From NCBI GenBank assembly GCA_031292555.1, contig JARLGV010000025.1, forward strand, positions 1 through 64,000: a stretch of 64,000 bases of DNA, in the 5' to 3' direction. Each line of letters begins with the position of its first letter. The stretch's first letter is position 1. The stretch comes from Fimbriimonas sp. (GTDB taxonomy: Bacteria; Armatimonadota; Fimbriimonadia; Fimbriimonadales; Fimbriimonadaceae). A program made the translations under genes and the position numbers. Under the pieces are notes generated by a model. That model searched no databases. It worked only from the letters and a program-made list of their open reading frames with translations, and was not told where the DNA came from. Positions 9,164 through 29,208 of the stretch are shown here, in pieces.

Positions 9164-11764
9164 CTAGACCGGGACCATGTCGTTCCAATCGGCGCCGATC
9201 TTAGCATCGACTTCCACCGGAACGTTAAGCGGCAACGCTTGCTCCATGTCGGACCGGATCGGTACCAGAACGCCTTCCTCGCCGGTTGGGATCTCGAACA
9301 CGAGTTCATCGTGTACGTTGAGCAACATTCGGGTCGAAGATCCTCGGATTTGGGCGTCGACCTTGATCATGGCCAACTTGAGCATGTCGGCGGCGGCCCC
9401 TTGGATTGGGGCGTTCATTGCCTGGCGTTCGGCGTATTTCCGCTCCATGATTTTTGGAGCGTGGATGTCCGGGAAATATCGCCGCCGTCCGCAGAGCGTG
9501 GTCGTGAAGCCTTTGCTCCGGGCTTCGCCGACAATGCTCTTGGTGAAGTCAGCCACGGTAGGGAAGCGTTCGTTGTAGAGCCGAATCAGTTCCTTGGCCT
9601 CCGCAATGCTGAATCCTCCGCCCAACTGCTGGGCTAGACCGAATTCGGTGACGCCGTAAAGAACCGCGTAGTTCAGCATCTTCGCCATTCGGCGCTGCTC
9701 TTTCGTAGCATCGCCGTTCCCAAGTCCGAACATCTGTTGCGCAGTAACGGTATGGACATCCACATGACGGTTGAACGCGTCCACAAGCGCCGGTTCGCCG
9801 CAGAGGTGGGCAAGAACCCGGAGTTCGATCTGGGAGTAGTCGAGCGAGGCCAGTCGGTAGCCGGAGCCGGCGGTGAACGCTTTGCGGATTCCGCGTCCCA
9901 GTTCGGTGCGGATCGGAATGTTTTGCAGGTTCGGGTCGTTTGACGAGAGCCGGCCGGTCGCCGCGACCGCTTGGTTGTAGGTAGTGTGGATACGCCCATC
10001 GGCCTGAATGAGCTTCTCAAGCGAGTCGGCGTAGGTGGACTTCAGCTTGGTCAGTTCGCGCCAGTTCAGGACCTCTTGGGCAATTTCGTACTGGGGAGCG
10101 ATGAGGCTGAGCACCTCGACGCCCGTGGCATATCCAGTCTTCGTCTTCTGGGCCCCGGGGATCTGGAGCTTCTCGAAGAGGACCTCTCCGAGTTGCTTGG
10201 GCGACCCGATCGTGAAGGTCGTCCCAGCCAATTCGTAGATCTTCTGGGTGGTCAAGTCGATCGTCACTTCGAGCGACTTGCTGAACTCCTTGAGCTGAGT
10301 CCGATCAGTGCGGATGCCGAGCTTCTCCATCTCGGCCAGAATTGGCACGAGCGGGAGCTCGATTTCCTGGAGGACCCTCGTTTGAGACTCTTTCTCAATC
10401 CGCTCTGACAGCGTCTCGCCAAGTAGATAGAGGGCCGATGCGAGTTCGCCGGCGGAGGTAGGAGGCGCGACATCGAGGTATCCCTGTACAAGATCGCGAA
10501 GAGCATAGGCTGAACGTTCCGATCGAAGCACGTACCCGGCAAGAAGCGTATCGAAGCGTGGCTTGCCGATTCGCTTGTCCATTCGCCGATAGACCGGCTT
10601 GGCGTCGTGAAGGATGGCAGCTTCGGGGCGGCTCTCAAGCAAACGGATCGCCTCTTGTTCCGGAACCTCACGGACTTGACTGCCGATCGCTATAAACGCC
10701 TTGCGATTCGACTCCTCAAAGAGGTCGGTTCGGGTTGGTGGCGCCTGGAAGTAGATCGCAAACGGTTTCGCGCCGACAAATGCCTCGATAGCGGCGTAGG
10801 CTTCGATCTCGGCCAATTCGATCTCCAGCTTCTCCGCCTCAACCTCGACGACCGGGGCGTCCTTGTCGGCCTCTTTTGCGCCTTCGAGGTACCCCCCCAA
10901 GACGATGGGCGCCCTTCTGGCATGGGAGCGGAACTCGAAGCTCTCCAGCATTGCAATAGCGGCGTCCATCTGGGGTTTGGTGAGCACGAACGGTTCGAAA
11001 TCGTATTCGAGGGGGACGTCTCGAATGATCGTCGCGAGGTACTTGCTCTGGCGCATCTGATCCTCGTTCCCTTCGATCCGCTTCTGGTATTTGGCATCAA
11101 GTTCTTCGAAGCGTGCCAAAAGCTGCTCGATGGCGCCAAACCGCTGAATGATGTCGGAGGCGCCCTTCTCGCCGATTCCGGGCACACCAGGAATATTGTC
11201 GCTGGTGTCGCCTTTGAGCGCCTTATAGTCGGGGATGTACTCGGGGCCGAAGCCATATCGTTCGACGACTTGTTCAGGACCGTAAGTCACGGTGTCGGTG
11301 ACGCCTTGCTTCATGGTCAAGACTGAGACACAGGTGTCGACAAGTTGAAGGGCATCCAGGTCCCCGGTGACGATGGTCGTGTCGTACCCGTTCTCCTCTG
11401 CCTTAAGGCTGATTGTTCCGACTACGTCGTCCGCTTCGAACCCGGTCACTTCGACACTTGGGATTCCCAAGGCGGAGATGAATTGCCGGGCCGCCTTGAG
11501 CTGGACTCTCAGTTCCTCTTGGGTCTCCTTTCGCGTGCCCTTGTATGCCTCGTACTCGGCGTGCCGGAACGTCTTCCCGGGAGCATCGAGGGCGACCACG
11601 ACGGCGCTTGGCCGGACCTTCTCCAACAGCGTGAAGAGCATTGACGTGAATCCATAAAGGGCGTTCGTCGGACGACCGTCGGTGGTACTCATGTACCGGG
11701 TGGCAAAAAAAGCCCGATACAGCAGCGAATACCCATCGATGATGACAAGCCGGCGGTTTCCCAT
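9164..11764 (-). CDS. polA: DNA polymerase I
   Basis: 866 aa, family A polymerase for Okazaki fragment processing and repair. The N-terminal 5'-3' nuclease (MGNRRLVIIDGYSLLYRAFF, FEADDVVGT, GDTSDNIPGVPGIGEKGA) is intact. The polymerase motifs are intact: A, LASLDYSQIELRVLAH; B, KMLNYAVLYGVTEFG; C, NVHDELVFE. The middle proofreading domain is degenerate: FAIYFQAP replaces the DxE strand and ILHDAKP the NxxxD motif. The frame has an in-frame TTG at 11770, but the ATG at 11764 fits the family. Convergent with the SCO-like gene, 6 bp apart. Confidence 0.97.
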   Translation of the reverse strand: MGNRRLVIIDGYSLLYRAFFATRYMSTTDGRPTNALYGFTSMLFTLLEKVRPSAVVVALDAPGKTFRHAEYEAYKGTRKETQEELRVQLKAARQFISALGIPSVEVTGFEADDVVGTISLKAEENGYDTTIVTGDLDALQLVDTCVSVLTMKQGVTDTVTYGPEQVVERYGFGPEYIPDYKALKGDTSDNIPGVPGIGEKGASDIIQRFGAIEQLLARFEELDAKYQKRIEGNEDQMRQSKYLATIIRDVPLEYDFEPFVLTKPQMDAAIAMLESFEFRSHARRAPIVLGGYLEGAKEADKDAPVVEVEAEKLEIELAEIEAYAAIEAFVGAKPFAIYFQAPPTRTDLFEESNRKAFIAIGSQVREVPEQEAIRLLESRPEAAILHDAKPVYRRMDKRIGKPRFDTLLAGYVLRSERSAYALRDLVQGYLDVAPPTSAGELASALYLLGETLSERIEKESQTRVLQEIELPLVPILAEMEKLGIRTDRTQLKEFSKSLEVTIDLTTQKIYELAGTTFTIGSPKQLGEVLFEKLQIPGAQKTKTGYATGVEVLSLIAPQYEIAQEVLNWRELTKLKSTYADSLEKLIQADGRIHTTYNQAVAATGRLSSNDPNLQNIPIRTELGRGIRKAFTAGSGYRLASLDYSQIELRVLAHLCGEPALVDAFNRHVDVHTVTAQQMFGLGNGDATKEQRRMAKMLNYAVLYGVTEFGLAQQLGGGFSIAEAKELIRLYNERFPTVADFTKSIVGEARSKGFTTTLCGRRRYFPDIHAPKIMERKYAERQAMNAPIQGAAADMLKLAMIKVDAQIRGSSTRMLLNVHDELVFEIPTGEEGVLVPIRSDMEQALPLNVPVEVDAKIGADWNDMVPV

Positions 11765-13645: not shown

Positions 13646-15025
13646 ATGGGCCAATCATCACTGGGCCGCAATAACAAATCGATCGTCTGGTTGACGATTG
13701 CGGTTGCGGTCGTCATTTCACTGTTCGCTCTTTGGTCGAAGTCGCCATTTGGCCAGGCGCCTACCAAGCTAGAGGCTGAACTAAAGGCGGCCGCATCCGA
13801 CGGCATGCCTACTGGCCCCGACGACCTAAGGCGTTTGTCGGCGGTGCCTTCCGGTCAGAATGCGGCTCCCTCGCTTGTCATTGCATTTGCGAACCTCAAG
13901 ACATGGAGTGATAGTAAAGAGGGCAAGGCGTTCTCTAAGGACCTCAAGGCATTTCGATCGGGTGATCCGGTCGATGACGGCTTGATGGCGCGAATTCGCA
14001 AAGACGTCGGTAGCGCCTCGAAGCTACTTGGGCTGCTGTCGCAAGCGGACGCGTTTCCACGAGTTGATTTCCGCCGTGAATGGGAAAAGGGGCCGTCGCT
14101 CTTGTTGCCTCAGTTTGCCTCCGAGAAGCTGGCGTGCTCACTTTTGCTGGCTCGGGCGCGTATTCAGATGGCGGATGGAGACCTCGAAGGAGGACTCCAA
14201 TCTATGCATGCGGCGGCGCATTTGGCTGACCTGGCGGGTCAGGAGCCAATGATCATCGGGTACTTGGTGCGCAGCGCCATGGTGCACCTTGTGCTTCGAG
14301 ACTTGGCCGCCGTCATCGACAGTCATCCTAATGACCTTGGTGTGTTGGAGCGGTGTCGGACAGTCGCTCTCGCGTTGGGACCGAGTCCGGACGTTAGGCC
14401 GGCAATTGGCGCCGAACTTGTGAGCGGCCGAATTGCGATGAACATGATCGCGAAGAATCCCAGCGCGCAGCTCTTTGGCGACAACGAGCCCAAGATGCTG
14501 ATGGCGGCTCGATTTGGGCCGACACGGACGATTTTCGAGTGGCGCTACGTGCAAGTTATGCATGAGCTGTATCGCGCACTGGGCCGGCGCCCCGAATCGT
14601 TCTTGGCGATGCATAAGGCTTTCGTTGACGTCGACAACAAATTGAGCTCCAATGCCGATTGGACCTATGCCTTTGCCGAGTTGATGTCGCCTGTGTTCAC
14701 TAACATGTCCAGTGCGCTTGGCGAATGTCAGGCGATGGTCAATGTCACCCTGTGCGGCATCGATCTGCTTGAAGTACGCGCCAAGACGGGCAGTTTCCCC
14801 TTGAAACTACCTGGTCAGGTGGGCCAATGGACGGACCCGTTGACCGAGAAGCCCATGATCTATCGACCGTCCGCGAAGGGGTTCCTAATCTATAGCGTCG
14901 GTCCAAACGGCGTTGACGACGGCGGCAAACCGAGGACGGTGGACTCGCGGGACCAGGAGTACGACGTACCTTTCCAGTTTCCTGCGGCGGCTGTACCGTC
15001 AAGACCTGCCAAGAGTAAACACTAA
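13646..15025 (+). CDS. membrane-anchored protein of unknown function
   Basis: 459 aa. One membrane segment at about residues 13-30, then a long helical extracytoplasmic region. The last 100 residues carry a pattern seen at the end of many planctomycete and armatimonad proteins and of GspG-like pseudopilins: FPLKLPGQVGQWTDPLTEKP, IYRPSAKGFLIYSVGPNG and DDGG. I do not recognise the main body. The stop overlaps the stop of the VKOR-DsbA gene tail to tail by 4 bp. Confidence 0.75.
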   Translation: MGQSSLGRNNKSIVWLTIAVAVVISLFALWSKSPFGQAPTKLEAELKAAASDGMPTGPDDLRRLSAVPSGQNAAPSLVIAFANLKTWSDSKEGKAFSKDLKAFRSGDPVDDGLMARIRKDVGSASKLLGLLSQADAFPRVDFRREWEKGPSLLLPQFASEKLACSLLLARARIQMADGDLEGGLQSMHAAAHLADLAGQEPMIIGYLVRSAMVHLVLRDLAAVIDSHPNDLGVLERCRTVALALGPSPDVRPAIGAELVSGRIAMNMIAKNPSAQLFGDNEPKMLMAARFGPTRTIFEWRYVQVMHELYRALGRRPESFLAMHKAFVDVDNKLSSNADWTYAFAELMSPVFTNMSSALGECQAMVNVTLCGIDLLEVRAKTGSFPLKLPGQVGQWTDPLTEKPMIYRPSAKGFLIYSVGPNGVDDGGKPRTVDSRDQEYDVPFQFPAAAVPSRPAKSKH

Positions 15026-16122
15026 CGACCGCGGATGATAGCGGCGAACTGCGACTGGCTTAGAACCTTCGCCAGGTTTGTGCTGGTGGCTACACCGACC
15101 GGTTTGTGATCGATGAACAGGATATAGGTGGGCGTCTGACGAATTCCATATCGATTTCCCAGAGCGATGGCGTCCCTTACTGCCTTCTTCGCCTCCTCGG
15201 TCGACATCGTTCTCTTGCCCTTCAAAGACGATTCGATCTGATTCAAGTCCTCCTTGGTCGGTTTGGTCGGCGACTCATACACCTGATTCACGAAACTCCA
15301 GAAGTCGGTTTGGTCCAGGCGCTCGCTCATCTCGGCAGCTGGGATCGACAATTCGTGGCCCTCCTCGGCGGCGAGGGGGAAGTGGTGGAAAAGTAGCGAA
15401 ACCTTGGTCGGGTACTTCGAAAGGAATTTGAGGACCCGACTGTGCATATCGCGGCATGCCGGACACATTAGGTCGCCAAACTCGGCAATGACGATTGGAG
15501 CTGCCGACGAGCCGAAGGAATGGGATGTCCTCTCGACGTCGCCATAGTCGACAATATTGAGATTAACCGACGATAGGTCGACGACCGGAGTTTGCCCCCG
15601 CTCTCCCTTGATTGCGACTGTTCCGATGACCATAGCGGGAACGGCAAACCATAGGAAGAGGGGCCCTGTCCGAATTCGGTCTCCAATCTGCTCGACGTGG
15701 CGCAAAAGGTAAAGGTTAGCCAACAGTGAACCGACCATCATACACGCCGAACCCAAACACCAGGCGCATGTTGCATGGATGTGCGTCACGGCATACCAGG
15801 TCAGCCCGCCGCTAACGAGCACGCCAACAAGCGAAATGCCGGCTGCCGCAAGTACGTTGTCCTGCTTGGTCTTCAGAACCGGACGATTGAGAAGGCGGGT
15901 CGTTGCCAGTAGGATAAGCAACGCATAGCCAACCAGGCCGAATACCGACACCGGGATTCCCATAAACGCGGAACTGGGGTCGTGGGCAACCTTCTCGCAC
16001 CCACTACCTCCTCCGCACGGTAAGGGCACGTTGGACGCGTGCGAGAGAGTGAGGGCAGATGCGATCGCTAGTCCCGCAGAAGCAAAGGACAACGTCAGTC
16101 GGTTGGCAAGAGCTGCTCCCAT
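15022..16122 (-). CDS. VKOR-DsbA fusion, periplasmic disulfide formation
   Basis: 366 aa. Residues 1-170 are a vitamin K epoxide reductase-like membrane domain with four or five helices, the loop cysteine pair Cys36/Cys42 and the quinone-site CAWC (Cys119/Cys122). Residues 190-366 are a DsbA-like thioredoxin domain with CPAC (Cys220/Cys223) and the cis-Pro in RQTPTYILF. One polypeptide thus oxidises client thiols and passes electrons to quinone. It lies 12 bp downstream of the PilP-like gene, at the end of the pilus operon, which suggests that pilus proteins are its clients. Confidence 0.92.
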   Translation of the reverse strand: MGAALANRLTLSFASAGLAIASALTLSHASNVPLPCGGGSGCEKVAHDPSSAFMGIPVSVFGLVGYALLILLATTRLLNRPVLKTKQDNVLAAAGISLVGVLVSGGLTWYAVTHIHATCAWCLGSACMMVGSLLANLYLLRHVEQIGDRIRTGPLFLWFAVPAMVIGTVAIKGERGQTPVVDLSSVNLNIVDYGDVERTSHSFGSSAAPIVIAEFGDLMCPACRDMHSRVLKFLSKYPTKVSLLFHHFPLAAEEGHELSIPAAEMSERLDQTDFWSFVNQVYESPTKPTKEDLNQIESSLKGKRTMSTEEAKKAVRDAIALGNRYGIRQTPTYILFIDHKPVGVATSTNLAKVLSQSQFAAIIRGR

Positions 16123-16134
16123 GCCGGCACCAGC

Positions 16135-16872
16135 CTAATCGATGGGTACGCCGAACTTCAGCGTGTGGTAGACCATTCCCTGGCTGACGACCACGATGCT
16201 GTCAGTTGCCGAAACCAGTGTGAATCCATTCGCGAATCTGTCCCCGGTGGACACGATGTAGTCCTTTCCGGCCAGCTTGATCACAACGATCGGATGCGGT
16301 CCGGAAACGATGCCGCTTAATAGAAGCGAATCGGCCTTTGGCTGGTCGGATTCGGCAACAACCGATCCGCCCTCCGGGTTGACTGGCTTGTTCGAAGGGT
16401 TTCCGGTTCTTTCTGTAGGCGGGAGGGTTCCAGAAATAGGTGTCGGTAGTTCGGATGATTCAACAGAATCCGAGCTACTCATCGCCTTTGCTCTCTTCTT
16501 TCGTGCCTCTTCGATTGCCACCTCGTCATCCGATTTCATGCCTATTCCTAGATGAGGCTTGAACGGGTCTTTGGTCGGTGGCGTGGCAATGGAATTTAAC
16601 TTAATTGCCGTGTCTTTCTTGGGAGTTCCAATGCCCGACATGGCAACTTTGTTATCGTTCGAACCGGCACTTGCTTCTGGTACTGGCGTAGTGCCGGCCG
16701 GACCACTAGTCGAACCAGTACCTGCGACTTGGACCGTCGCATTCGTCGGTGGCGGTACCATGTCGCCTCCAAGGGCGCTCTTGACGCGCATCACAACCAA
16801 CGCGAACACGACAACGACCCCGACAACGAGGCCGATCGCCTTCGTACGATCTTCGGGACGGATCGACTTCAA
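16135..16872 (-). CDS. PilP/GspC-like type IV pilus protein
   Basis: 245 aa. One membrane segment (about 12-29) and a long low-complexity linker rich in Pro, Ser, Thr and Gly. The final beta-domain (LLSGIVSGPHPIVVIKLAGK, DYIVSTGDRFANGFTLV, GMVYHTLKFG) is the HR-type domain of PilP and GspC that links the inner-membrane platform to the secretin. TTG start 3 bp after the secretin stop, with GGAGG 11 bases upstream. Position after pilQ supports the role, although in most species pilP precedes pilQ. Confidence 0.72.
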   Translation of the reverse strand: MKSIRPEDRTKAIGLVVGVVVVFALVVMRVKSALGGDMVPPPTNATVQVAGTGSTSGPAGTTPVPEASAGSNDNKVAMSGIGTPKKDTAIKLNSIATPPTKDPFKPHLGIGMKSDDEVAIEEARKKRAKAMSSSDSVESSELPTPISGTLPPTERTGNPSNKPVNPEGGSVVAESDQPKADSLLLSGIVSGPHPIVVIKLAGKDYIVSTGDRFANGFTLVSATDSIVVVSQGMVYHTLKFGVPID

Positions 16873-16875
16873 AGT

Positions 16876-18822
16876 CTAAGAGCCCTCCGGCTTGGTGTCC
16901 TTCACGATGTGGGTAGTGATGCTCACGACGATATCCTCCCTGGACCGGCTGTAGTTCCGGCTGCGGAAGAGTTGTCCGACGATGGGCAGTTGCGAAAGGT
17001 ATGGCACGGCGGTTACCGTCGTGCGCTCTTGATCCTGAATCAAGCCGCCAAGAACCATGGTCTCGCCGTCCTTGAGGATCACCGTCGTATCCGCCTCGCG
17101 AGCGGCCGTCTGAGGAATGCCGTTTGCGTCGATCGAGCTAACAGACGAGATGACCGGATTGACGTGCATTGTCACCGTGCCGTCCGGACTGATCTTTGGG
17201 CTTACGAGGAGAATAATGCCAACAGGGAAGGAAGCGATCGACTGGCTGGTACCTCCGAGATTGCCGGTTGACGTGAGTTCAACCGAAATCGTATTGCCGA
17301 TGAATACGGATGCCTGATCGTTATCGATCACTTGCAGACTGGGTTTCGCCAAGATCTTCGCCTTTTGATGAGATACCAGAGCCGAAAGAATGGTCTGGAA
17401 GTTCATCGGCGACATGCTCACTTGGCCCACGCCAACCGGACGGGTCGCGGCTGCACCCAATTGGTATCCTCCGCCAGACAGGCTCGCAAGAGCGGTGCCC
17501 GGTGGAACTTGATAAAAACTGATCGGAGAGAACGTGTAGCCAAGGCCAAGCTGTTCTGCATCGGTCGGTGAAGTCTCCAAAACGTTGACTTCTACGACGC
17601 ACTGGCGCGGTTTGATATCCAGATCGGAAATCATCTTCAGGGCGCGATCGACGTCGGTCCGCTTTCCTTTCAGGACGATCGATTTGGCTCGCTCGCCGGG
17701 CTTAAGGCCACTTGCGCCGGACGTCGAGCCGGTTGCCGACGATCCTCCGCCTGCTGCACCTTGAGAACCACCGCCCCCACCGGAATTGCTCCCACCTCCG
17801 CCGCCTCCACCGCTAGAACCACCTCCAACGGACGAAGTCTGCGATTGCGCGATTTGGGTGGACATAGGATTGAAGTTGGCTCTTAGCGGGCTGATCTGCT
17901 CGGGGCCATAGACAGCGTCGATTTCGGGCGCTGCCTTCTTCAGAAAGTCGACTGCGCTTGGCGCGCTCAAATATTTGAGGTTGTAGACGTCATAGACGAC
18001 ATGCTCAGTAACGTCGCTCTCGGAGCCGGAATCCAGCATCTCGATCGTCTTCTTCGCTTCAGCAACGATGTCCTCAGGCCCGCTAAGGCCGATCGCTCCG
18101 TGAGAAACGGGAAGCCAGCGGGATGGATTCACGCCGGTCTGGGCCGCTCCGCCGGCGGCAGCGCCAGCACCGGCGCCTGCTCCGGCATTGTTCGCATTTT
18201 CCGTGTTCTTAGACAGAGTGTTCGAAACGATCAATGTCGGATAGAGCCCCTTGAGGAGAGGCGCAATCTCCTCAGCCGCCGCATTGTGCATCATGATCAC
18301 TTCGCGAACGGTCCGCTGAACGGCTGGAGCGTGGTAGGAACGCACGATGGCGATGGCGTCGGGAACATCCTCGTTGATGGCGGTTAAGAGGACCCGATCA
18401 CCGTTCGCTTGGGCTGTGACATATGGCATCGCCGCTTGGATTCGTTGAGCGATCGCGTCAGCCGTGCCCGGTTCCACCGCGTAAGTTGTCGTGTGGGTAT
18501 AGGGTGCCAGCGCATCCCGCATGCCGGTTGGGCTGGCAACCACATACACCGTGCCCACTTTCTTGTAAGCCAATCCGGCGGAAGCCGTAACGCTGCGAAC
18601 CGCTTCTTCGGCCGTGTTAACGGAAAGCTTTAGCGTGATTGTCGTCTTGGTCTTGTTTGCGTAGACGATGTTTGCCCCGGTTCGCATACTGATGGCCATC
18701 AGCGCCAGCGAGGCATCGGTGTCAGTGAACACCATGGAAATGCGGGGGGTAAACCCTTGTTGCGCAACTGTAGCACCGGCCAGAGCTAAGAATGCGAGAA
18801 AGGTTGTTTTGTTCATAACCAT
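16876..18822 (-). CDS. pilQ: type IV pilus secretin
   Basis: 648 aa. Signal peptide (MNKTTFLAFLALAGATVAQQ), N-terminal STN/N0-like domains, then a Gly/Ser-rich linker at roughly residues 325-370, an N3-like domain, and the secretin barrel (ILAKPSLQVIDNDQASVFIG, GIILLVSPKISPDGTVTMHV, TTVILKDGETMVLGGLIQ). It forms the outer-membrane gate for the pilus, so the cell has an outer membrane. The first ATG at 18822 or the second at 18816 could start it. The Gly/Ser linker inside the periplasmic part is unusually long. Confidence 0.95.
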   Translation of the reverse strand: MVMNKTTFLAFLALAGATVAQQGFTPRISMVFTDTDASLALMAISMRTGANIVYANKTKTTITLKLSVNTAEEAVRSVTASAGLAYKKVGTVYVVASPTGMRDALAPYTHTTTYAVEPGTADAIAQRIQAAMPYVTAQANGDRVLLTAINEDVPDAIAIVRSYHAPAVQRTVREVIMMHNAAAEEIAPLLKGLYPTLIVSNTLSKNTENANNAGAGAGAGAAAGGAAQTGVNPSRWLPVSHGAIGLSGPEDIVAEAKKTIEMLDSGSESDVTEHVVYDVYNLKYLSAPSAVDFLKKAAPEIDAVYGPEQISPLRANFNPMSTQIAQSQTSSVGGGSSGGGGGGGSNSGGGGGSQGAAGGGSSATGSTSGASGLKPGERAKSIVLKGKRTDVDRALKMISDLDIKPRQCVVEVNVLETSPTDAEQLGLGYTFSPISFYQVPPGTALASLSGGGYQLGAAATRPVGVGQVSMSPMNFQTILSALVSHQKAKILAKPSLQVIDNDQASVFIGNTISVELTSTGNLGGTSQSIASFPVGIILLVSPKISPDGTVTMHVNPVISSVSSIDANGIPQTAAREADTTVILKDGETMVLGGLIQDQERTTVTAVPYLSQLPIVGQLFRSRNYSRSREDIVVSITTHIVKDTKPEGS

Positions 18823-18976: not shown

Positions 18977-19549
18977 TCAGGGAGTTGCTTTGTCTTCGTC
19001 CTTCCTGGTCGAAACAACGTAGCGTCCCACAGACATTGTAACCGTATTGTCGCCCACTTTGTTACGGTTCCAAATGATATTGCTAAGTGTGTAGAGCCGG
19101 TCCGACTCCTCGAGTTCACCCATGAGTTGGCGAAGTCCCGGATAGGGTCCGGATAGAGTCATAAAACTGCTGATCTTGCGTATCCCTTTGAGTAGGGCCG
19201 TAACTTGTGGGTCTTGCTTGTCAGCGTTCTTGTCTTTACCATACTCGGTGGATTGGCTTGTCCATTTGTCCAACGACACTCCGTTGGCGGTGGCCCTTTG
19301 ACGGAGGAAATTGATGAACGTCGGTTCTTCGTCGGGAGTGTCGGCAACCGCGGCGTACTTCTTCTCTTGGAGCATGGTGTCCGCCCCTTTCTTGTTCTTA
19401 GTGGCCTTTTCGACGTCTCGATTCGCCAAATCTAATGAATTGCTTGCTTCGATGAACGCCGAACGCTGAGCGAATATGACCCAAAAGGCGACCGCCATAC
19501 AGAGAATGGGGAAGCCCCAGCCGAGGATGCGCGTAGGATCGGATTTCAC
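18977..19549 (-). CDS. pilO: PilO-like pilus assembly protein
   Basis: 190 aa. One membrane segment (about 8-26), a coiled coil, then a ferredoxin-like domain (ALLKGIRKISSFMTLSGPYPGLRQLMGELEE, given here by its ends) typical of PilO. It pairs with PilN at the inner membrane to align the motor with the pore. GTG start overlapping the PilM-PilN stop as GTGA. A 154-bp gap without gene separates it from pilQ. Confidence 0.85.
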   Translation of the reverse strand: MKSDPTRILGWGFPILCMAVAFWVIFAQRSAFIEASNSLDLANRDVEKATKNKKGADTMLQEKKYAAVADTPDEEPTFINFLRQRATANGVSLDKWTSQSTEYGKDKNADKQDPQVTALLKGIRKISSFMTLSGPYPGLRQLMGELEESDRLYTLSNIIWNRNKVGDNTVTMSVGRYVVSTRKDEDKATP

Positions 19550-21210
19550 TGCTTCACATCCTCTGCGTATTCAACCCGATCAAGCGAAATAGTCTTCCCC
19601 TTGAACTGGAACGCTACGCCGTACCCTGCATCTTCAGGCTGCTGGTAGAAAGTCACCATCTGCAAATCATGGATTACAGGACATGTTTGAAGTCGACTTT
19701 GGGTTTCTAGCATCACCTTCTCATTGATCGACGACCCGTCGATCGTGACCGTCAGGTCAGTCGATACGACCAGCTGGTTCAGACTCGTCGCTCGATCGAG
19801 GTTCATCGAAATGAAGTCCATGATCGCAGTTAGCGGAACACCTTCGTGGCGCAGGGCTTTGTACTGTTCGGACTGATTGTGGCGGTGGGCAAGGGTCGTA
19901 TCCGTCTTTTTACGCAGTTCCGAAGCTACTGACTCTTTCTCGCGAGTGTCGTTTTGGAGCTGTGTAATCTGCTTGCCGTACAACGAATAGACAACCGACC
20001 CAAGGGCAATCGCAATGATGGACGTTATGATTGAGCCCTTGAAATTCCTCTTCGACTCTGCTTTCTGAACGGCGCTGCGTTCTTTTATGAACAGGTCGAC
20101 CCGAGGAACCTTTGCCATTAACTGGCCCTGAAGGGCAAGTCCGTACGCGGCAGAGTAGAGCGGTCCAGATCCAGAAACCAGTTCAGTGGTCACGTCCGGG
20201 CTATCGTTTGGACTCCCCACTGGCTGTACGAGTTCAATCGTCACCCCCAAGCGCTGGCTCAATTCGTCGGCCAAGGGCACGATACGGGAATCATCGATGC
20301 ACAGGTATAGAACGTCGCCGATTCCGATGTTTGGGAACTCGCGTTGATAATAGTCCAGCGTGCGCTGAACCTCGACCGAAAGGCTCTCGATGGCTGCACT
20401 GTTCAGCTCGATCTCGTTTGCGTCGTATTCCTGCAAGTCGTCGACGAACAGGTCTTGGCTAGGCTCGACGTAACCGTAGTCGATATGACTGGGAACCGTC
20501 ATAAGGATCGAGCGTGAACCGGTATCAATCCGGCGGTAGGCGACCAAATTGCCCCGATAGGCGATGGCAATATCGGTATTCGATGGATTGACCATCAGTC
20601 CAAATGCACTTGTGGCGTTGGCTGAAGCGGCTAGAACCGATCGATACATGGCGTACTGCGAAGGTTCAAGCGCCTCGATCCCGATATTTGCCTCGTGGGC
20701 AGTTTCTCGCAGATTCGCAATAACGTCTTCTTCCAGCGCTACGATCGTCACATTGACGGGGCGCAAGTTCTCCTGATTTGCGCTTGATGCTGAAGCAAGG
20801 GCCATCGGATCAGTGTTTCTCGGGGGAGGTGGAAAGAGCCGTAGGAACGAGTGGGTGCCGCCTTCCGTCTTAACTATCCCATAGTGCTCGACTTCGCCGG
20901 TAACGATCGTTGTCAGGTCATTGTCGGGTACCGGTGGAACGGGCAGCGTTCGAAGCAACGTGGTATCGCCGAGAATGCCAAACACCGCTCGGCTATTGGC
21001 GCCGATGTCCATCGAGTTCAGCAAGAGCCGGAGGGCGATTGCGACCGATCCCGGCTGCATAACTTTCCCACGGATAACCGCACCATGGGGCATTGATGCA
21101 CGCCCGATCTTGGAGATGATCGTCTTGTTGGCGCGCGTCTTGACCTGTACAATGCGGATCTCACCCTCATGGAGGTCGATTCCCACCGTGGATGCGTCTT
21201 TTCGGGCCAT
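19546..21210 (-). CDS. PilM-PilN fusion protein
   Basis: 554 aa. Residues 1-375 are the actin-like ATPase PilM (STVGIDLHEGEIRIVQVK, AALRLLL-type helix, EVQRTLDYYQ, YSAAYGLALQ). Then come the PilN features: LMAKVPRVDLF, a membrane segment near residues 395-415 and the periplasmic coiled coil and ferredoxin-like domain. In most bacteria PilM is a separate cytoplasmic protein that binds the N-terminal INLLP peptide of PilN; here the two are covalently joined. The PilN N-terminal motif appears as KVPRVDLF. Overlaps pilO by 4 bp. Confidence 0.88.
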   Translation of the reverse strand: MARKDASTVGIDLHEGEIRIVQVKTRANKTIISKIGRASMPHGAVIRGKVMQPGSVAIALRLLLNSMDIGANSRAVFGILGDTTLLRTLPVPPVPDNDLTTIVTGEVEHYGIVKTEGGTHSFLRLFPPPPRNTDPMALASASSANQENLRPVNVTIVALEEDVIANLRETAHEANIGIEALEPSQYAMYRSVLAASANATSAFGLMVNPSNTDIAIAYRGNLVAYRRIDTGSRSILMTVPSHIDYGYVEPSQDLFVDDLQEYDANEIELNSAAIESLSVEVQRTLDYYQREFPNIGIGDVLYLCIDDSRIVPLADELSQRLGVTIELVQPVGSPNDSPDVTTELVSGSGPLYSAAYGLALQGQLMAKVPRVDLFIKERSAVQKAESKRNFKGSIITSIIAIALGSVVYSLYGKQITQLQNDTREKESVASELRKKTDTTLAHRHNQSEQYKALRHEGVPLTAIMDFISMNLDRATSLNQLVVSTDLTVTIDGSSINEKVMLETQSRLQTCPVIHDLQMVTFYQQPEDAGYGVAFQFKGKTISLDRVEYAEDVKQ

Positions 21211-21243: not shown

Positions 21244-21798
21244 CTACAGCCGATTTCGTAATCCGACAAACGTCGTATACGTGCTGGTGACCCCGTTGAG
21301 GGTGACGGTCGCTACAATTCCCACCGCCAATAAGTTGACGATCGTAGTGTTGGTTGGCGTGAAGGTCGTGAGCGAAGAAGTGTTGTAAGTCGTGGAATTG
21401 TAGTAGGTCAGAGCAATCGATGTGTTTGGGTAGACAGTTGTCGCAGTGCCGCTTCCTACCGTCGTTTGGAAGTTCCCAGAGTTGACAGCGTAATTGGTCT
21501 TGACGATATTCCCGCTTCCGTCTCTCGAATAGATGGTGCAACTTGTTGTGGTTGCATCCTGAGCGTTGGCGCCAACGACACAGCCGGAGTCGGTGGATGC
21601 GCAGAGGGTTGCGGCTCTAAAAGCATTTGCCAACGTGATCGTCATCTGCTGGGCTTCCTGCTGGCTTTGGGATAGACCCGTACTATAGTTGTTCGCTTTG
21701 AAAACGTTTTTGTAGATCTGGAACAAGGCTGCCATCACGATGCCGAGGATGATTACACCCACGAGCACTTCGATCAAAGCCCAGCCCCGTCGCCTCAC
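21244..21798 (-). CDS. minor pilin, PilW/GspJ-like
   Basis: 184 aa. A very short leader MRRRG is followed by WALIEVLVGVIILGIVMAAL, a class III pilin N-terminus with Glu at mature position 5. The frame is open upstream to 21861, but the GTG at 21798 overlaps the preceding stop as GTGA and has GGTGG upstream, so I prefer it. Trp rather than Phe/Met at mature position 1 is unusual. The body is Thr/Ser-rich. Third of a minor-pilin group with the PilV-like and PilX-like genes. Confidence 0.82.
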   Translation of the reverse strand: MRRRGWALIEVLVGVIILGIVMAALFQIYKNVFKANNYSTGLSQSQQEAQQMTITLANAFRAATLCASTDSGCVVGANAQDATTTSCTIYSRDGSGNIVKTNYAVNSGNFQTTVGSGTATTVYPNTSIALTYYNSTTYNTSSLTTFTPTNTTIVNLLAVGIVATVTLNGVTSTYTTFVGLRNRL

Positions 21799-22313
21799 AT
21801 TCCACCTTGGATCAGGTTCGTCGCCATACTCAAAGAGAACGAAGTCGTTAAGCTGTTGCATGTCACGACGATGGATCTCAAAGTCGCACCCTCAAGTGAG
21901 TAGGTCGTTCCAGAACCTGCAAGTACCGGCGAGTCCGTGATCGTCATCGTCACGCTGAAGTAAGCCCCGGCTGCCGAACTGGATGCCACTTGAGTTCCAT
22001 TGAGGCTATAGTAGGCAGTGCTACCGGACGTCCAACCGGTCGCCGGAATATAGGCGCCGCTCCAAGTGCCGGTCTGGGTCGATGAGCTGTAGGTGCCGGT
22101 CGGAAGATTGGCCGGTCCATATGCCTTGGCAATCTCCAAGACGGCCCGATCGATTTCCTCGGCTTCGGTGACCTGCATGGTGACGTTGCTCGAGTTGTAG
22201 GTCGTCGTCCAAGAAGAGAACATGGCTCCGATGGCGACGGCAAGAATAATCGAGGCGATGATCGCCTCGATTATTGAAAAACCGCCGCACTGAGTACGGC
22301 GTTTGGATCTCAT
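21795..22313 (-). CDS. minor pilin, PilV/GspI-like
   Basis: 172 aa. Leader MRSKRRTQCGG, then FSIIEAIIASIILAVAIGAM with Glu at mature position 5. Ser/Thr/Gly-rich body with one cysteine in IVVTCNSL near the C-terminus. The ATG at 22313 overlaps the PilX-like stop as ATGA; a GTG at 22322 is an alternative. Minor pilins of this class prime pilus assembly at the inner membrane. Confidence 0.82.
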   Translation of the reverse strand: MRSKRRTQCGGFSIIEAIIASIILAVAIGAMFSSWTTTYNSSNVTMQVTEAEEIDRAVLEIAKAYGPANLPTGTYSSSTQTGTWSGAYIPATGWTSGSTAYYSLNGTQVASSSAAGAYFSVTMTITDSPVLAGSGTTYSLEGATLRSIVVTCNSLTTSFSLSMATNLIQGGM

Positions 22314-23953
22314 TTCTTGCACCAGCTAAGAATCTGGCCGCCACCGCACGGATCGTTTCCGCAGTAGGAGGAAGCTTGATAGTTCAGAGTGCAGCTGTTC
22401 TGGCACGACAGCTTGTCGCATAGGCAGGAACCGGTGATCTTGCAGCAACCGTGAGACCGGTTGGAGTCGCAGCCACAAAGGCCGATCTTGCATCCGTGCT
22501 TGGTAGTGTCGATCGTAGTGTTGGGCGTGCATCCGCCGGTGGTGGATACCGTGGTATCCGGCTGGCGCGTGCAGGCATAGATGCCACAGTGATACTCAAA
22601 GTCACCGGTGATTGTGTTGCCTTGCCAGTCGCAGCAACCGGACGGACGATTGAACTGGCAGCAGCAGTTGTCCTTACCGTAGTAGATTCGGAACTTTCCG
22701 CAGTCAGGGGTCGATGTACCGGAGGGGCAAGTATTGGTGATAGGCAACGAGCAGGAGTCGTTGGTGGGGCTTGAACCTGGATCATTGACCCAGAACCGAA
22801 CCTGGCCCGGCGTGCATCCACTGGCGTAGCCTTCAGGATCGATTACCATCTCGCAAGAGCAGTCATAGGCAAGCTGCATGCTCGTGAAATAGTAGTCACC
22901 CGGTTCGAATATCAGCGTCTGAACGGCGTACGTCGGAGGCGAGGACCACCACCAATACCAGTATCCGCTCGAGTTATAAGTGCCTGGGTGTGTGCCGGCA
23001 TTGTTCCAGCAGGAGTTCGATAGCGACGTTCCACATCCACCGGTAAGCTGGCAGCAGTTGTGGCTGCTGACCGTATCGTCGGTCGCGCCTGACTTGTACG
23101 TATAGACGCAACTCGAATTGTTGCAGTGGTTCGAACACCAACTCCAAGCCTGTGAGTCGGAGTACTCGGTGTGACCGCACGACTTCTTGATGAGCGACGC
23201 GCATGTTGGATAGACGACGGGCGCCTGGTTCGTGCAGAGCTTTCCTCCGGACTGAATGTGGGTGGTCGTCAACTGGCCGCTCGTGTACGTGCAACCGTTG
23301 GAGTTAATCCCGGTCGGAACCGAGATTGTGCTTCCAGAGCCGGTCGTAACCGTTCCGTTCACCGTGATCGGGCCAGTAGCCACGACGCTGCCGCCGCCTC
23401 CGACCGTGATCGTCGTCGGATCTCCCGAATAAGAACCAGTAGTGGCGCTCGAGTAGATGTTGAAGACCGACGAAGACTGCGTCTTGATCTGAACGCGATT
23501 CCAAGCGCCGTTCACAAGGCCGCTCGACGTGATATAGAAAGGCGATGTGACGCCATCCCATGCAGTGCTACCGGCAGTATCGTTGCTTGCATAGACCCAG
23601 AACTGTCCGCCGGTGAAGCCGGGAACAGTGCCATTGGCGCCTTTGATCGCGAAACTCTCGCTCGGGTACTTGATCGTCGTACCCGTCGCTGCCACCGGCT
23701 GCGAGGACATCAAAGTCACGTTTGTCTGCCCGGAATTCTCGGCAATGTACTGAAGCTCCCAGTTGATCCCCGCGTCTGCCATCTGCAAGGCAGCCTCAGA
23801 TCGCTCCTGATTCCAGCCAAGTTTGCTGGACGTCATGCTGACGCACAGGCTGGCGGCAAGGAGCGTCGCCGTAATCAAGGAGATCATCAACGCCGTAATT
23901 AACGCGATACCTGCTTCGCGGCGTCTTCGAATCCTAGGTTGTAAGTGTTTCAT
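22310..23953 (-). CDS. PilX-like protein with cysteine-rich C-terminal domain
   Basis: 547 aa. The N-terminus RRREAGIALITALMISLIT, with LQMADAGINWELQYIAENSG after it, is that of PilX-N pilus assembly proteins. Residues 80-215 are Thr/Ser/Gly-rich beta structure. Residues about 215-547 hold almost all of the 38 cysteines, many adjacent (NCCQ, DNCCCQ, SGCCDW, HGCCKI), about 11% of that region. The C-terminal part also holds aromatic runs such as YWYWWWSS. It would need extensive oxidation in the periplasm, and the locus encodes a VKOR-DsbA fusion. Possibly a pilus-tip or adhesive component; that is inference. First of the minor-pilin operon. Confidence 0.85.
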   Translation of the reverse strand: MKHLQPRIRRRREAGIALITALMISLITATLLAASLCVSMTSSKLGWNQERSEAALQMADAGINWELQYIAENSGQTNVTLMSSQPVAATGTTIKYPSESFAIKGANGTVPGFTGGQFWVYASNDTAGSTAWDGVTSPFYITSSGLVNGAWNRVQIKTQSSSVFNIYSSATTGSYSGDPTTITVGGGGSVVATGPITVNGTVTTGSGSTISVPTGINSNGCTYTSGQLTTTHIQSGGKLCTNQAPVVYPTCASLIKKSCGHTEYSDSQAWSWCSNHCNNSSCVYTYKSGATDDTVSSHNCCQLTGGCGTSLSNSCWNNAGTHPGTYNSSGYWYWWWSSPPTYAVQTLIFEPGDYYFTSMQLAYDCSCEMVIDPEGYASGCTPGQVRFWVNDPGSSPTNDSCSLPITNTCPSGTSTPDCGKFRIYYGKDNCCCQFNRPSGCCDWQGNTITGDFEYHCGIYACTRQPDTTVSTTGGCTPNTTIDTTKHGCKIGLCGCDSNRSHGCCKITGSCLCDKLSCQNSCTLNYQASSYCGNDPCGGGQILSWCKK

Positions 23954-24366: not shown

Positions 24367-24750
24367 TTACAGGTTCACGTTGAATGGCGTGGGAGTCCAT
24401 GGTCCACAATTCCCTCCCTCCAATGCAGTCACCGTCGCCGACTTCGAAGTGGCCGTGATCACATAACCGCCAGAATTTCCTGTGCACGGATTTGTTGGCA
24501 CTGAACCGCCCATGTCGACAGCATAGTCAGCCACCACCGTATCGTAGTATCCGGTCGATGTGGCGCGGGATTGGACTGCGGATGCGAGCGCTCTAGCGTT
24601 GCTATTGGCCGATCCCTGCTGCGTTGTCTGAACCGTGCTGATATATACCGGCAGCGCAATCATCGTCAGAATGCCGAGAATCAGAATCACGACCAGGAGT
24701 TCAGTGAGGGTAAAACCCGTCGTGTTCGGCTTGGCTCTGAGGTTATTCAT
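24367..24750 (-). CDS. minimal type IV pilin A
   Basis: 127 aa. MNNLRAKPNTTG leader, then FTLTELLVVILILGILTMIA (Glu5 of the mature form present), QGSANSNARALASAVQSRA and a small C-terminal domain with one cysteine pair (NPC and GGNCGPW). The ATG at 24750 follows GGGGAGA; the frame upstream of it is non-coding in style. One of six paralogues of 127-130 aa in this window. The small size resembles the conductive or minimal pilins only in length; the globular part is present. Confidence 0.9.
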   Translation of the reverse strand: MNNLRAKPNTTGFTLTELLVVILILGILTMIALPVYISTVQTTQQGSANSNARALASAVQSRATSTGYYDTVVADYAVDMGGSVPTNPCTGNSGGYVITATSKSATVTALEGGNCGPWTPTPFNVNL

Positions 24751-24927
24751 GTCGTCTCCCCTTTCGTTTCGGTCGGACTCTGCTCCGAATTTTGGTTCGG
24801 CACCGACCGGCAATCTATCTTTCGGCGAGGCGGGTCCAGACATGAAGGTCCCAGTGATTCTTTGAGGCTTTGATCCTGGGACCGTTGGGCGTAGAGGCTA
24901 AGACAATCTGTATTGGCCAAACGCAAG

Positions 24928-24979: not shown

Positions 24980-25363
24980 TTAGAGAACGAGCGAGAACGT
25001 CGTCGGGGTCCAAGTTCCGCAGTTGGAACCGGTCGAAGCAACGACGGAAGCAGTTGTCGTGGTCGAGGAGATCACATAGCCGGTCGTGCTGGCCGTGCAA
25101 GGATTGTTGGGGATCGTGCCGCCCATGTCCGTCGCGAAGTCGGCGAGGGTCGTGTCGTACGAGCCGGAAGCGATCGCATGGGCCTGAACGGCGGTGGCAA
25201 GCGCTCGAGCGTTGGTGTTGGCGGCGCCTTGGCGAGAAGTCTGGACCGAGCTGAGGTAGGACGGCAGAGCGATCGCAGTGAGGATACCGAGAATCAAAAC
25301 GACGACGAGTAGTTCGATGAGCGTGAAGCCCTTTCGGTTGCGGCGAATCCTGAGTTGTTTCAT
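24980..25363 (-). CDS. minimal type IV pilin B
   Basis: 127 aa. MKQLRIRRNRKG leader, FTLIELLVVVLILGILTAIA, RQGAANTNARALATAVQAHA, and cysteines in NPCTAS and GSNCGTW. Closest in text to pilins D, E and F at 53-55 kb, so this is likely the parent or offspring of that cluster. Start chosen at the conserved leader Met. No Shine-Dalgarno; a -10 element lies 10 bases upstream. Confidence 0.92.
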   Translation of the reverse strand: MKQLRIRRNRKGFTLIELLVVVLILGILTAIALPSYLSSVQTSRQGAANTNARALATAVQAHAIASGSYDTTLADFATDMGGTIPNNPCTASTTGYVISSTTTTASVVASTGSNCGTWTPTTFSLVL

Positions 25364-25373
25364 CACGATGTAG

Positions 25374-25402
25374 ATGATACGGACAATCGCCAACTACCGC
25401 AA
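25374..25402 (-). promoter_or_regulatory. candidate promoter of pilin B
   Basis: On the minus strand TTGCGG (25402-25397), a 17-base spacer, then TATCAT (25379-25374), ending 10 bases before the ATG. The expected transcript would have a leader of only a few bases, matching the lack of a ribosome binding site. Confidence 0.4.
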
Positions 25403-25657: not shown

Positions 25658-26041
25658 CTACAGCTTTACTGAGTATGTGATCGGCGTCCAGAATCCACAG
25701 TTCTGTCCTTCCGTCGCGGTTACTGTAGCGTTTGTCAGACTCGCCACGATCAGATAACCGGAAGAGGTTTCCGTACACGGGTTTATGGGGACAGAGCCAC
25801 CAAAGTCGGATGCATAGTCTGCTACGTTTCGGTCGTATCGGCCAATCCGTTTCGCACGGCTCTGAACGGCTGCGGCAAGTGCCCGTGCGTTCGCATTGGC
25901 ACTGGATTGCCTTGTAGTCGTGACCGAAGAGTTGTATGCGGGGAGGGCGATCGAAGTCAGGATTCCAAAAATCACGACGACCAAGAGCAGTTCCGGCAGG
26001 GTGAACGCACTCGTCCGGAAATCGGTGGGACACGTGCGCAT
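25658..26041 (-). CDS. minimal type IV pilin C
   Basis: 127 aa. Leader MRTCPTDFRTSA, then FTLPELLLVVVIFGILTSIA: the residue before the cleavage point is Ala rather than the usual Gly, and Pro sits at mature position 4. Glu5 is kept. SANANARALAAAVQSRA and the cysteine pair (NPCTE, GQNCGFW) follow. The most diverged of the six pilins. TATATT lies 7 bases before the ATG at 26041, so its mRNA may be nearly leaderless. Confidence 0.85.
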   Translation of the reverse strand: MRTCPTDFRTSAFTLPELLLVVVIFGILTSIALPAYNSSVTTTRQSSANANARALAAAVQSRAKRIGRYDRNVADYASDFGGSVPINPCTETSSGYLIVASLTNATVTATEGQNCGFWTPITYSVKL

Positions 26042-26266
26042 ACGCGCTAATATACTGCCACCTTGTTCCAGTCGATTCCGGCAGGAAGGCCGAGTCACGG
26101 AAATGCGGTAAAGAAAGCAAGTTACACCAGGTATTTAACCGGTTAGGATGCGTCCTTGTTGACAATAACCCTGTTCTTGCTCTCGTGGAATATCCGGCGA
26201 AAGTCATCTGCGTGTCCCCGTCCGTCGCCATCGGCAAGGGCGACGGCAAACAGGGACAAGCAGTTC

Positions 26267-27493
26267 CTACTTGTGATTTAGCGCGTTGCCCAAGTTGAAC
26301 ACCGGCATATAGAGCGCGAGAAGAATGAGAAGCACAATTCCGCCGACAAGTATCGTCATCAGTGGCTCAATCATTCTCGTCAACTTGTCGACACTGTATT
26401 CGACGTCTCGATCATAGAATCGGTTGACCTCGTCCAGCATCGAATCCAAGCTGCCGCTTGACTCGCCCGCAGACAGCATGCGCGTGACCATCAAAGGGAA
26501 CTCGCCGGTCTTTTCTAACTCGCCGGCAATCGGCGAGCCCTCGCGGATCTTGGCGGTCGCTTCAACGACGGCGTCTCGAATAACCGAGTTGCCCGCCATG
26601 TTGCCGGAAATATGCAAGGCATGAAGAACGGGCACGCCGCTTCGCAAGGCTGCGCTAAGAGTCTGAACGAACCGCGCGATCGCGATTTTACGGAAAACAA
26701 TGCCCAGAACCGGGAGCTTCAGAGCAATAATGTCGAGCTTGCGGCTTCCGTCCTCGGATTCAGCGTATTTTTTGTAGCCGAACGCGAGCGCCGCAATTGA
26801 GAGCAACACGAGCCAACCATAGCCGGTGACGAAATCGCTCACCGTGATCAGCATCTGGGTTGGTCCAGGCAACTGGGACCCGAGTTGGCGATACACCTGC
26901 GAGAAAACAGGGACAACGACCACGATCATGATGGCGACCGTTCCGACACAGGCAGCAACAACGATTTTCGGATAGGTTGTCGCGGCCTTCACCTTGCGGC
27001 GAAGATTATCCTCTCGGTCCAACTGGATAGCTGCTGCTTCAAGTGTTTCTGCCAAGTTACCGGTGGCCTCGCCGGATTCGACGAACGCGACGACTAACTT
27101 GCTGAACACCTTCGGGTATCGAGACATCGCAACGGAGAGGGACTCCCCCCCGGAAACCGCCTTTTCCAGATCCCGGAATGCGACTTTGAGCGTCGGTTTG
27201 GTCACCTGTGAGGAAACAAGATTGAGGGTTTCCATCATCGGCATACCGGCACGCATCATTGTTGCAAGCTGACGAGTTGCAATGACCATGTCCTGAAGGG
27301 TCGGTTTGCGAACAAATAACCCTTGAGAGCCGGCGGCATTCGGATCTTCCTGGCCTGCGGTGCCGCGCACCTGAGTCAGAAATAGGCCGTTTGCACGAAG
27401 AATGTTGCGGAGGTCTGCCTCATCCGATGCCTGCAAATGCCCGGATGACGACTTGCCTGTTCGGTCCCTGGCGACGTATTTGTACTTGGGCAT
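26267..27493 (-). CDS. pilC: type IV pilus inner-membrane platform protein
   Basis: 408 aa, usual length. MPKYKYVARDRTGKSSSG, then two T2SSF repeats (ATRQLATMMRAGMPMMETL; FVQTLSAALRSGVPVLHAL) and membrane segments around 170-200, 220-240 and 375-400. It is the rotor-like platform on which PilB acts. It starts 5 bp after the pilB stop, so they are one operon. Confidence 0.95.
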   Translation of the reverse strand: MPKYKYVARDRTGKSSSGHLQASDEADLRNILRANGLFLTQVRGTAGQEDPNAAGSQGLFVRKPTLQDMVIATRQLATMMRAGMPMMETLNLVSSQVTKPTLKVAFRDLEKAVSGGESLSVAMSRYPKVFSKLVVAFVESGEATGNLAETLEAAAIQLDREDNLRRKVKAATTYPKIVVAACVGTVAIMIVVVVPVFSQVYRQLGSQLPGPTQMLITVSDFVTGYGWLVLLSIAALAFGYKKYAESEDGSRKLDIIALKLPVLGIVFRKIAIARFVQTLSAALRSGVPVLHALHISGNMAGNSVIRDAVVEATAKIREGSPIAGELEKTGEFPLMVTRMLSAGESSGSLDSMLDEVNRFYDRDVEYSVDKLTRMIEPLMTILVGGIVLLILLALYMPVFNLGNALNHK

Positions 27494-27498
27494 GCTTC

Positions 27499-29208
27499 CT
27501 ATTCCTCTTGCGCAAACACGCGGAGTATCTCTTCAATTGAAATCTGCAATTCGAGGGCTCTTAATATTGCACATTCCTTCATTGTCTTCATCCCTTCTGA
27601 TATTGCCTGAATGGTGATCTCTTGTCCTGTGCAGCCCTGCAGCACCATGTCACGAATCTTGTCTGTGATCGGCAGGATTTCCATGACTGCACTCCGGCCT
27701 TTCATGCCACGACCGCCACAGCGCTTACATCCCACCGGGCGCGCTACCGTCGGCGGCTTGCCCTCAACCATTGGTATTCCTGCCGTGAGCGCCATTGCCA
27801 TCGACAGTTGGTATTCCTGGCGGCAATATGGGCACAGGTTGCGGACCAGGCGTTGACCAACGACCCCGACGATCGCCGAACTGATTAGGAACGGTTCCAC
27901 GCCCATGTTCTGAAGTCGAACAACGGCGCCTGGGGCATCGTTGGTGTGCAAGGTACTAAGAACAAGGTGGCCCGTAAGAGCTGCCTGGATTGCCGTTTCG
28001 GCCGTGTCCTTGTCTCGAATTTCACCGACGAGAATAACGTCAGGGTCCTGACGCACGAGCGTACGCAAGCCTGCCGCAAACGTGACGCCGATCTTCTGGT
28101 TCACCTGCATCTGGTTGATGCCAGGCAGGCGGTATTCGACGGGATCCTCAATCGTGTTGATGTTCTTCGTTGCGTCGTTGATCGCTTGAAGGCCGGCGTA
28201 CAGAGTTGTTGATTTTCCGGAACCGGTCGGACCCGTCACGAGGATCAACCCGTGGGGTCGACGAATAAAGCGCTGGAACATTGCCCTTTGCTCGGGAAAG
28301 AAGCCGATGCGTTCGAGGCTCGCCATCGAGTTCGCCTTCTCGAGGAGTCGCATACAAGCTTTTTCGCCGTACACCGTCGGCATCAAGCTCATTCGGATGT
28401 CGTATTCGCGTCCACTGTCGTCTCGCGTGCTGAAGCGGCCGTCTTGGGGACGTCGACGCTCGGCGATGTCCAAGCCACTCATGATCTTGAGACGGGAGAC
28501 GCAGGCGGCCAAATGGTTGTTGGGCAACGTCATCTGCTCGTACATTACGCCGTCGATGCGATACCTTACGCGAACATTTCCCTCTTGGGGCTCTAAGTGG
28601 ATGTCGCTTGCTCCCGCGGCAATCGCCCCACCCACGAGGCTGTTCACCAGTTTGACGATCGGCGCCTCGTTGCTCTGATCGATCAGGTCGTCGATCGGCT
28701 CGTTCTCGGCTTCATTCGTAAACCCAATCTCATGGATCAGATTGCGGACCTTCTCTCGGGCGTCATATGATCGGCGAATCGACTCGTTCAGGTCTGCGCC
28801 GAGGGCCAAGCAGGGCTCAATCGGTTTGTTGAAAATGGCGCGATATTCGTCGATCGTCGCGATATCTAGCGGATCGGCCATCGCCACGAGAATCCGCCCG
28901 CTGACTTCCCGGAACGGCAGGGCCATTCGAGACAGAACCGTGTCTTTGGGGACGGCCGCGACCAAATCGCGATCGATTTCTTCCTCGGAGATGTCGACGA
29001 ACGGGAACCCGGTGCCCTGCTCGAGGTAGGGCTTGATATCAGACGACGCCAAGAAACCCATTGAGACCAGGATGTCTCCGAGAGATCCGCCAAACTGCTG
29101 CTGCCGCTCAAGTGCCTGGCGAAGCTGCTCTTCGGCGAGCAACCCGTCTCGAATGAGTCGCTCACCCAAACGGCCGAGCGATACCCGTTGTTCCTTTCGT
29201 GTCATCAT
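27499..29208 (-). CDS. pilB: type IV pilus extension ATPase
   Basis: 569 aa. N-terminal GSPII-E domain (ERLIRDGLLAEEQLRQAL), Walker A GPTGSGKST at about 326-334, Asp box, Walker B DVILVGEIRD, His box VLSTLHTNDAPGAV, and the zinc tetracysteine CPYC and GCKRCGGRG. All catalytic elements are intact. It powers pilus extension. Downstream of the PilT-like gene with 136 bp between, and immediately upstream of pilC. Confidence 0.96.
   Translation of the reverse strand: MMTRKEQRVSLGRLGERLIRDGLLAEEQLRQALERQQQFGGSLGDILVSMGFLASSDIKPYLEQGTGFPFVDISEEEIDRDLVAAVPKDTVLSRMALPFREVSGRILVAMADPLDIATIDEYRAIFNKPIEPCLALGADLNESIRRSYDAREKVRNLIHEIGFTNEAENEPIDDLIDQSNEAPIVKLVNSLVGGAIAAGASDIHLEPQEGNVRVRYRIDGVMYEQMTLPNNHLAACVSRLKIMSGLDIAERRRPQDGRFSTRDDSGREYDIRMSLMPTVYGEKACMRLLEKANSMASLERIGFFPEQRAMFQRFIRRPHGLILVTGPTGSGKSTTLYAGLQAINDATKNINTIEDPVEYRLPGINQMQVNQKIGVTFAAGLRTLVRQDPDVILVGEIRDKDTAETAIQAALTGHLVLSTLHTNDAPGAVVRLQNMGVEPFLISSAIVGVVGQRLVRNLCPYCRQEYQLSMAMALTAGIPMVEGKPPTVARPVGCKRCGGRGMKGRSAVMEILPITDKIRDMVLQGCTGQEITIQAISEGMKTMKECAILRALELQISIEEILRVFAQEE

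Follow-up and report, generated by a model that had tools for sequence, protein, structure and literature searches.

A gene of a type IV pilus operon in Fimbriimonas sp. encodes a protein of 547 amino acids with 38 cysteines (positions 22310-23953, reverse strand, of the window, i.e. the whole stretch of 64,000 nucleotides that was analysed). Judging from its modelled structure and its sequence, this protein is a modular minor pilin of the GspK/ComZ type. With moderate confidence, we favour the reading that it is a tip pilin whose clade-specific, cysteine-bearing solenoid is braced by disulfides through an older VKOR-DsbA oxidation system.

The cysteine-rich minor pilin and its operon

All but one of the cysteines (37 of 38) lie within residues 215-547, and some of them adjoin each other (CC at 300, 440 and 503; CCC at 430), in agreement with the earlier note, which had counted about 36 cysteines, many of them adjacent, in the last 330 residues. 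The background was a sample of 381 ORFs, spanning 485 kb of the source genome, in which the median cysteine content is 1.2%; against this background, 38 cysteines in 547 residues have a binomial probability of about 1e-17, and the ORF ranks first in the sample in both cysteine count and cysteine fraction. Genome-wide cysteine richness was rejected as a cause, given this median, the solitary standing of the ORF and the ordinary cysteine content of the other operon proteins. A search of the genome_contigs collection with the single cysteine-rich protein confirmed no relative. Syntenic orthologues with identities of 63, 50 and 51% are present in three other Fimbriimonas genomes, and the ORF is therefore a real gene.

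The pilus genes of the window all lie on the reverse strand. In the direction of reading, they encode the PilB extension ATPase (27499-29208, with T2SSE and MshEN domains), the PilC platform protein (26267-27493, assigned from sequence and synteny), three PilA-type pilins (25658-26098, assigned from similarity to its two PilA-type neighbours; 24980-25393, with two cysteines; and 24367-24843, with two cysteines in the mature chain) and the cysteine-rich pilin. The next two genes encode a PilV/GspI-like minor pilin of 175 amino acids (21795-22322), which is syntenic and has N_methyl and PilV matches below the cut-off, and a PilW/GspJ-like minor pilin of 205 amino acids (21244-21861). They are followed by the genes for a PilM(-N) protein (19546-21210; PilM_2, 2.3e-9), a PilO-like protein (18977-19549; position and synteny), the PilQ secretin (16876-18822; Secretin, 3.1e-42) and a PilP-like protein (16135-16872), which has no family match and was assigned from position and synteny. 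The last gene of the operon, 12 bp past the pilP-like gene, encodes a VKOR-DsbA fusion of 366 amino acids (15022-16122) with VKOR (6.5e-19) and Thioredoxin_4 (9e-17) domains and all six catalytic cysteines conserved, so that the previous description of a co-directional locus closed by such a fusion holds.

An AlphaFold model of the cysteine-rich pilin, built with 14 homologues, has a pLDDT of 81 and a pTM of 0.75, with values mostly of 80-95 in the cysteine-dense blocks. The predicted layout comprises an N-terminal pilin helix (residues 10-72), a pilin sheet, a beta-solenoid (about 161-530) and a last pilin strand (536-546); the cysteines sit on the beta-solenoid, which has the fold of ice-binding proteins and is inserted before the last strand. 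The top Foldseek match of the model is ComZ of Thermus thermophilus (E 1e-5), and ComZ (PDB 6qvi) is also its best match among solved structures in VIA-align (Z 15.8 over 255 residues), which also aligned ice-binding-fold solenoids (Z about 15) and, across residues 16-546, the type II secretion tip pseudopilin XcpK (Z 8.1). The model of a cysteine-poor orthologue from another genome (G002, three cysteines) matches ComZ likewise, with a Z of 15.8, and the fold thus does not need the cysteines. In the solenoid of this orthologue, some 75 residues (346-420; L060, about 10200-10510) are inserted, and they are predicted with low confidence.

Profile matches are less pronounced than the fold match. 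The PilX_N match of the cysteine-rich pilin (22.8 bits, 9.3e-5) falls below the gathering cut-off of 25.5 bits, which makes "PilX" only a loose label; of the former designation as a PilX-like pilus protein, the assignment as a pilin is upheld by the fold, and the family name is better replaced by a GspK/ComZ type. The GspK and PilV profile matches are weak, and the DUF7305 profile (PF23981) finds 7 of the 15 family homologues but not the cysteine-rich pilin itself. At its predicted mature N-terminus, after Gly15, the protein has threonine in place of glutamate at position 5; GspK-type tip subunits typically lack Glu5. Since the cysteine-rich pilin adjoins the GspI- and GspJ-like minor pilins, the three proteins likely form a tip complex. 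The PilV/GspI-like protein, whose gene order is kept in all genomes with an operon-linked VKOR, is a probable partner in this complex. Of the earlier proposal of a disulfide-hardened pilus tip, the placement at the tip is thus supported by the strong match to the ComZ/GspK fold in the model and by the neighbouring minor pilins.

Cysteine enrichment and the linked oxidase across genomes

The pilin family is carried by 51 of the 291 genomes of the phylum, and cysteines were counted in those homologues whose loci were retrieved. Cysteine-rich orthologues were found in four genomes only, namely the source genome (G000, 38 cysteines), G019 (26), G005 (29) and G004 (36); the ectodomains contain 37 cysteines in the source genome and 25, 28 and 36 in the other three. 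The orthologues of G002 and G079 have three cysteines and those of G016 and G008 have five, and more distant homologues in the class and phylum have 1-9. The four cysteine-rich members constitute one clade both in the tree of PilB/C/M/O/Q (support 100) and in the tip-pilin tree (support 97, or 70 with all cysteine columns removed). A paralogue with six cysteines in G005 is sister to this clade and therefore offers a glimpse of the pilin before its enrichment; the 20 kb retrieved around it contain no other pilus gene (L015, G005:C20:12588-14153; region L059).

The oxidase has a wider distribution. Of the 85 genomes of the family, 80 have VKOR, usually at other genomic sites, which is what the earlier note had itself named as speaking against its proposed co-occurrence of VKOR-DsbA with the cysteine-rich protein. 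An operon-linked VKOR-DsbA was found in the four cysteine-rich genomes and also in G002 and G016, next to orthologues with three and five cysteines, and an enzyme dedicated to the cysteine-rich protein is hence not supported; the orthologous operons of G079, G092, G094, G013, G014, G008 and G083 have no linked VKOR. In the enzyme tree, the operon-linked copies group together (support 77), in a branching order that agrees with the operon tree; all of them have kept the catalytic cysteines. Because it is linked in the cysteine-poor G002 and G016, the enzyme came first and did not originate as an accessory to the cysteines. The simplest history suggested by the trees would be that the operon captured the enzyme, that cysteine enrichment occurred later in one clade and that the enzyme was lost in G079. 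Each of these events would have happened about once, so that co-occurrence alone gives the functional link no statistical support.

The operon VKOR-DsbA could instead serve other pilus proteins, such as the two-cysteine major pilins or the GspJ-like pilin, with other VKOR proteins doing the work on the cysteine-rich pilin and the linkage being incidental. We give this alternative tentative weight, as the linked enzyme stands beside cysteine-poor orthologues in G002 and G016 and the source genome encodes two further VKOR-DsbA fusions; however, the linked enzyme is kept in all four cysteine-rich genomes. The major pilins keep their two cysteines with or without a linked VKOR, which leaves other substrates possible; for the same reason, a linked VKOR that tracks the two-cysteine pilins was rejected, and these pilins also fail to account for the linkage.

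Two side observations concern other members of the enzyme family. In the source genome, a third, divergent VKOR-DsbA with 13 cysteines (G000:C84, L064:2866-3804) lies near a membrane/DsbA-like protein with 14 cysteines (L064:7287-8387), which is perhaps a further relative of VKOR-DsbA. Another lineage within the genus has a VKOR gene some 3 kb away from a different secretin gene (G007:C29:3737-8030), possibly an independent link between an oxidase and a secretin.

Cysteine turnover and the probable fate of the cysteines

As a rule, the structural disulfides of a protein are its best-conserved part. Among the four cysteine-rich orthologues, only 9 of 65 cysteine columns are common to all, and the conservation of cysteine (56%) is below that of Phe, Tyr, Pro and Gly (70-72%), which is unusual for structural disulfides or a fixed disulfide fold. 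By parsimony, with counts that depend on the alignment, about 61 cysteines were gained and 11 lost within the clade; each of its branches shows gains, whereas no branch outside it gained more than 4.

This turnover argues against one conserved metal site. The earlier note had considered a metal-binding pattern as the finding that would speak against pairing; none was found. We regard it as improbable that the cysteines are unpaired and bind metal at the tip in thiolate clusters (e.g. of copper or zinc). The CC and CCC runs of the source-genome protein, together with its CxC and CxxxC arrangements, would suit such clusters, but a conserved site should be the best-kept part of the protein, few cysteine columns are shared, histidine is the least conserved of all residues (10%), and an operon that contains an oxidase favours disulfides.

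Most likely, the cysteines end up in disulfides that the VKOR-DsbA system forms. The positions that they occupy are hydrophobic in relatives in 35-47% of cases, vs 27.5% of ectodomain columns generally, as would be expected for buried half-cystines. The ectodomains of the four orthologues show no preference for even cysteine numbers (two of the four are odd), and cysteines gained together lie no closer in sequence than expected by chance (P 0.49).

The odd counts and the positional turnover would also fit cysteines that act by number and not by position, forming surface or inter-subunit disulfides that link the tip protein with its partner pilins, with further tips or with thiols from outside. 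The GspJ-like pilin adds to the case for such cross-links: besides two old cysteines it has an extra one at mature position 81, which among the nine genomes aligned occurs only in the four cysteine-rich ones and possibly forms an inter-subunit disulfide. Nevertheless, the cysteines of the tip pilin and the GspJ-like pilin do not consistently sum to an even number, many of the cysteines are at hydrophobic, probably buried positions, and we consider this reading unlikely.

It is similarly doubtful that the cysteines accumulated without benefit, each new periplasmic cysteine being paired by the local oxidase, tolerated and only slowly lost. An oxidase that is older than the enrichment in the trees, and cysteines gained along all branches of the clade at no fixed positions, are compatible with such a process. 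However, so large an excess of gains over losses, confined to a single protein, is strongly directional; the products of neighbouring operon genes, with equal access to the oxidase, did not become cysteine-rich; and in G002 and G016 cysteines did not build up although the oxidase was present.

Under the reading that we prefer, a tip pilin with a disulfide-braced solenoid, the ComZ/GspK-type pilin and its GspI- and GspJ-like neighbours would prime or cap the type IV pilus and place the beta-solenoid at its tip. In the one four-species Fimbriimonas clade, the solenoid accumulated 25-37 cysteines. These would be oxidized to disulfides in the periplasm before assembly by quinone-linked VKOR-DsbA fusions, for which the operon-linked enzyme is the natural candidate. 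According to the trees and parsimony, the oxidase would have resided in the operon first and the cysteines would have followed, with drifting positions and a number that was kept high. The likely effect would be covalent bracing of the solenoid, making it resistant to force and proteolysis outside the cell. A more speculative extension, to which we attach clearly less belief, is that the prior presence of a co-operonic oxidase opened a one-way path, on which, in the tip solenoid of this one clade, a drifting disulfide network replaced residues of the hydrophobic core and the surface, and selection acts on the number of cysteines, not on their positions.

Related pilus systems and significance

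ComZ of T. thermophilus was proposed to be a DNA receptor at the pilus tip, and both its tip position and its DNA binding were argued (PMC6561018). Like the cysteine-rich pilin, ComZ has a helix, a sheet and a large ice-binding-fold solenoid before the last strand, and its gene adjoins those of minor pilins. In contrast to ComZ, the Fimbriimonas pilin has 37 ectodomain cysteines, the word "disulfide" is absent from the ComZ paper, and a profile of the cysteine-rich pilin family has no sequence match to ComZ (6qvi) at E <= 1; the likeness is one of predicted fold. ComEC is encoded in the source genome, which only permits competence. GspK/XcpK of type II secretion shares with the pilin a weak profile match, the XcpK structural match and the GspI- and GspJ-like neighbours, but the GspK insert is alpha-helical, whereas the Fimbriimonas pilin has a beta-solenoid and lies in a type IV pilus operon. 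In myxobacteria, the PilY1 tip adhesins likewise show lineage-specific cysteine enrichment, with clade medians of up to 41, which the authors read as disulfides (PMC13190605); PilY1 is, however, a beta-propeller protein of unrelated fold and not a pilin. Dependence of pilus assembly on a quinone-linked disulfide system (MdbA) was described in Actinomyces oris (PMC5478893), a Gram-positive organism with sortase pili, in contrast to the type IV pilus operon of Fimbriimonas.

ComZ-like and other modular pilins were already known (PMC6561018, PMC8179133), and our literature search found no ComZ-type pilin whose cysteines are as dense and turn over as much and which is encoded beside an older oxidase of the same operon. 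The present case extends ComZ-like modular tip pilins to the Armatimonadota, where pili are little studied. Orthologues of one predicted fold span 3 to 38 cysteines, with positions that turn over and an oxidase that preceded the rise, so that one protein family allows a direct test of the sequence of steps by which disulfides evolve. If the reading as a drifting disulfide network is true, this family would be an experiment of nature in how disulfides accrue during evolution.
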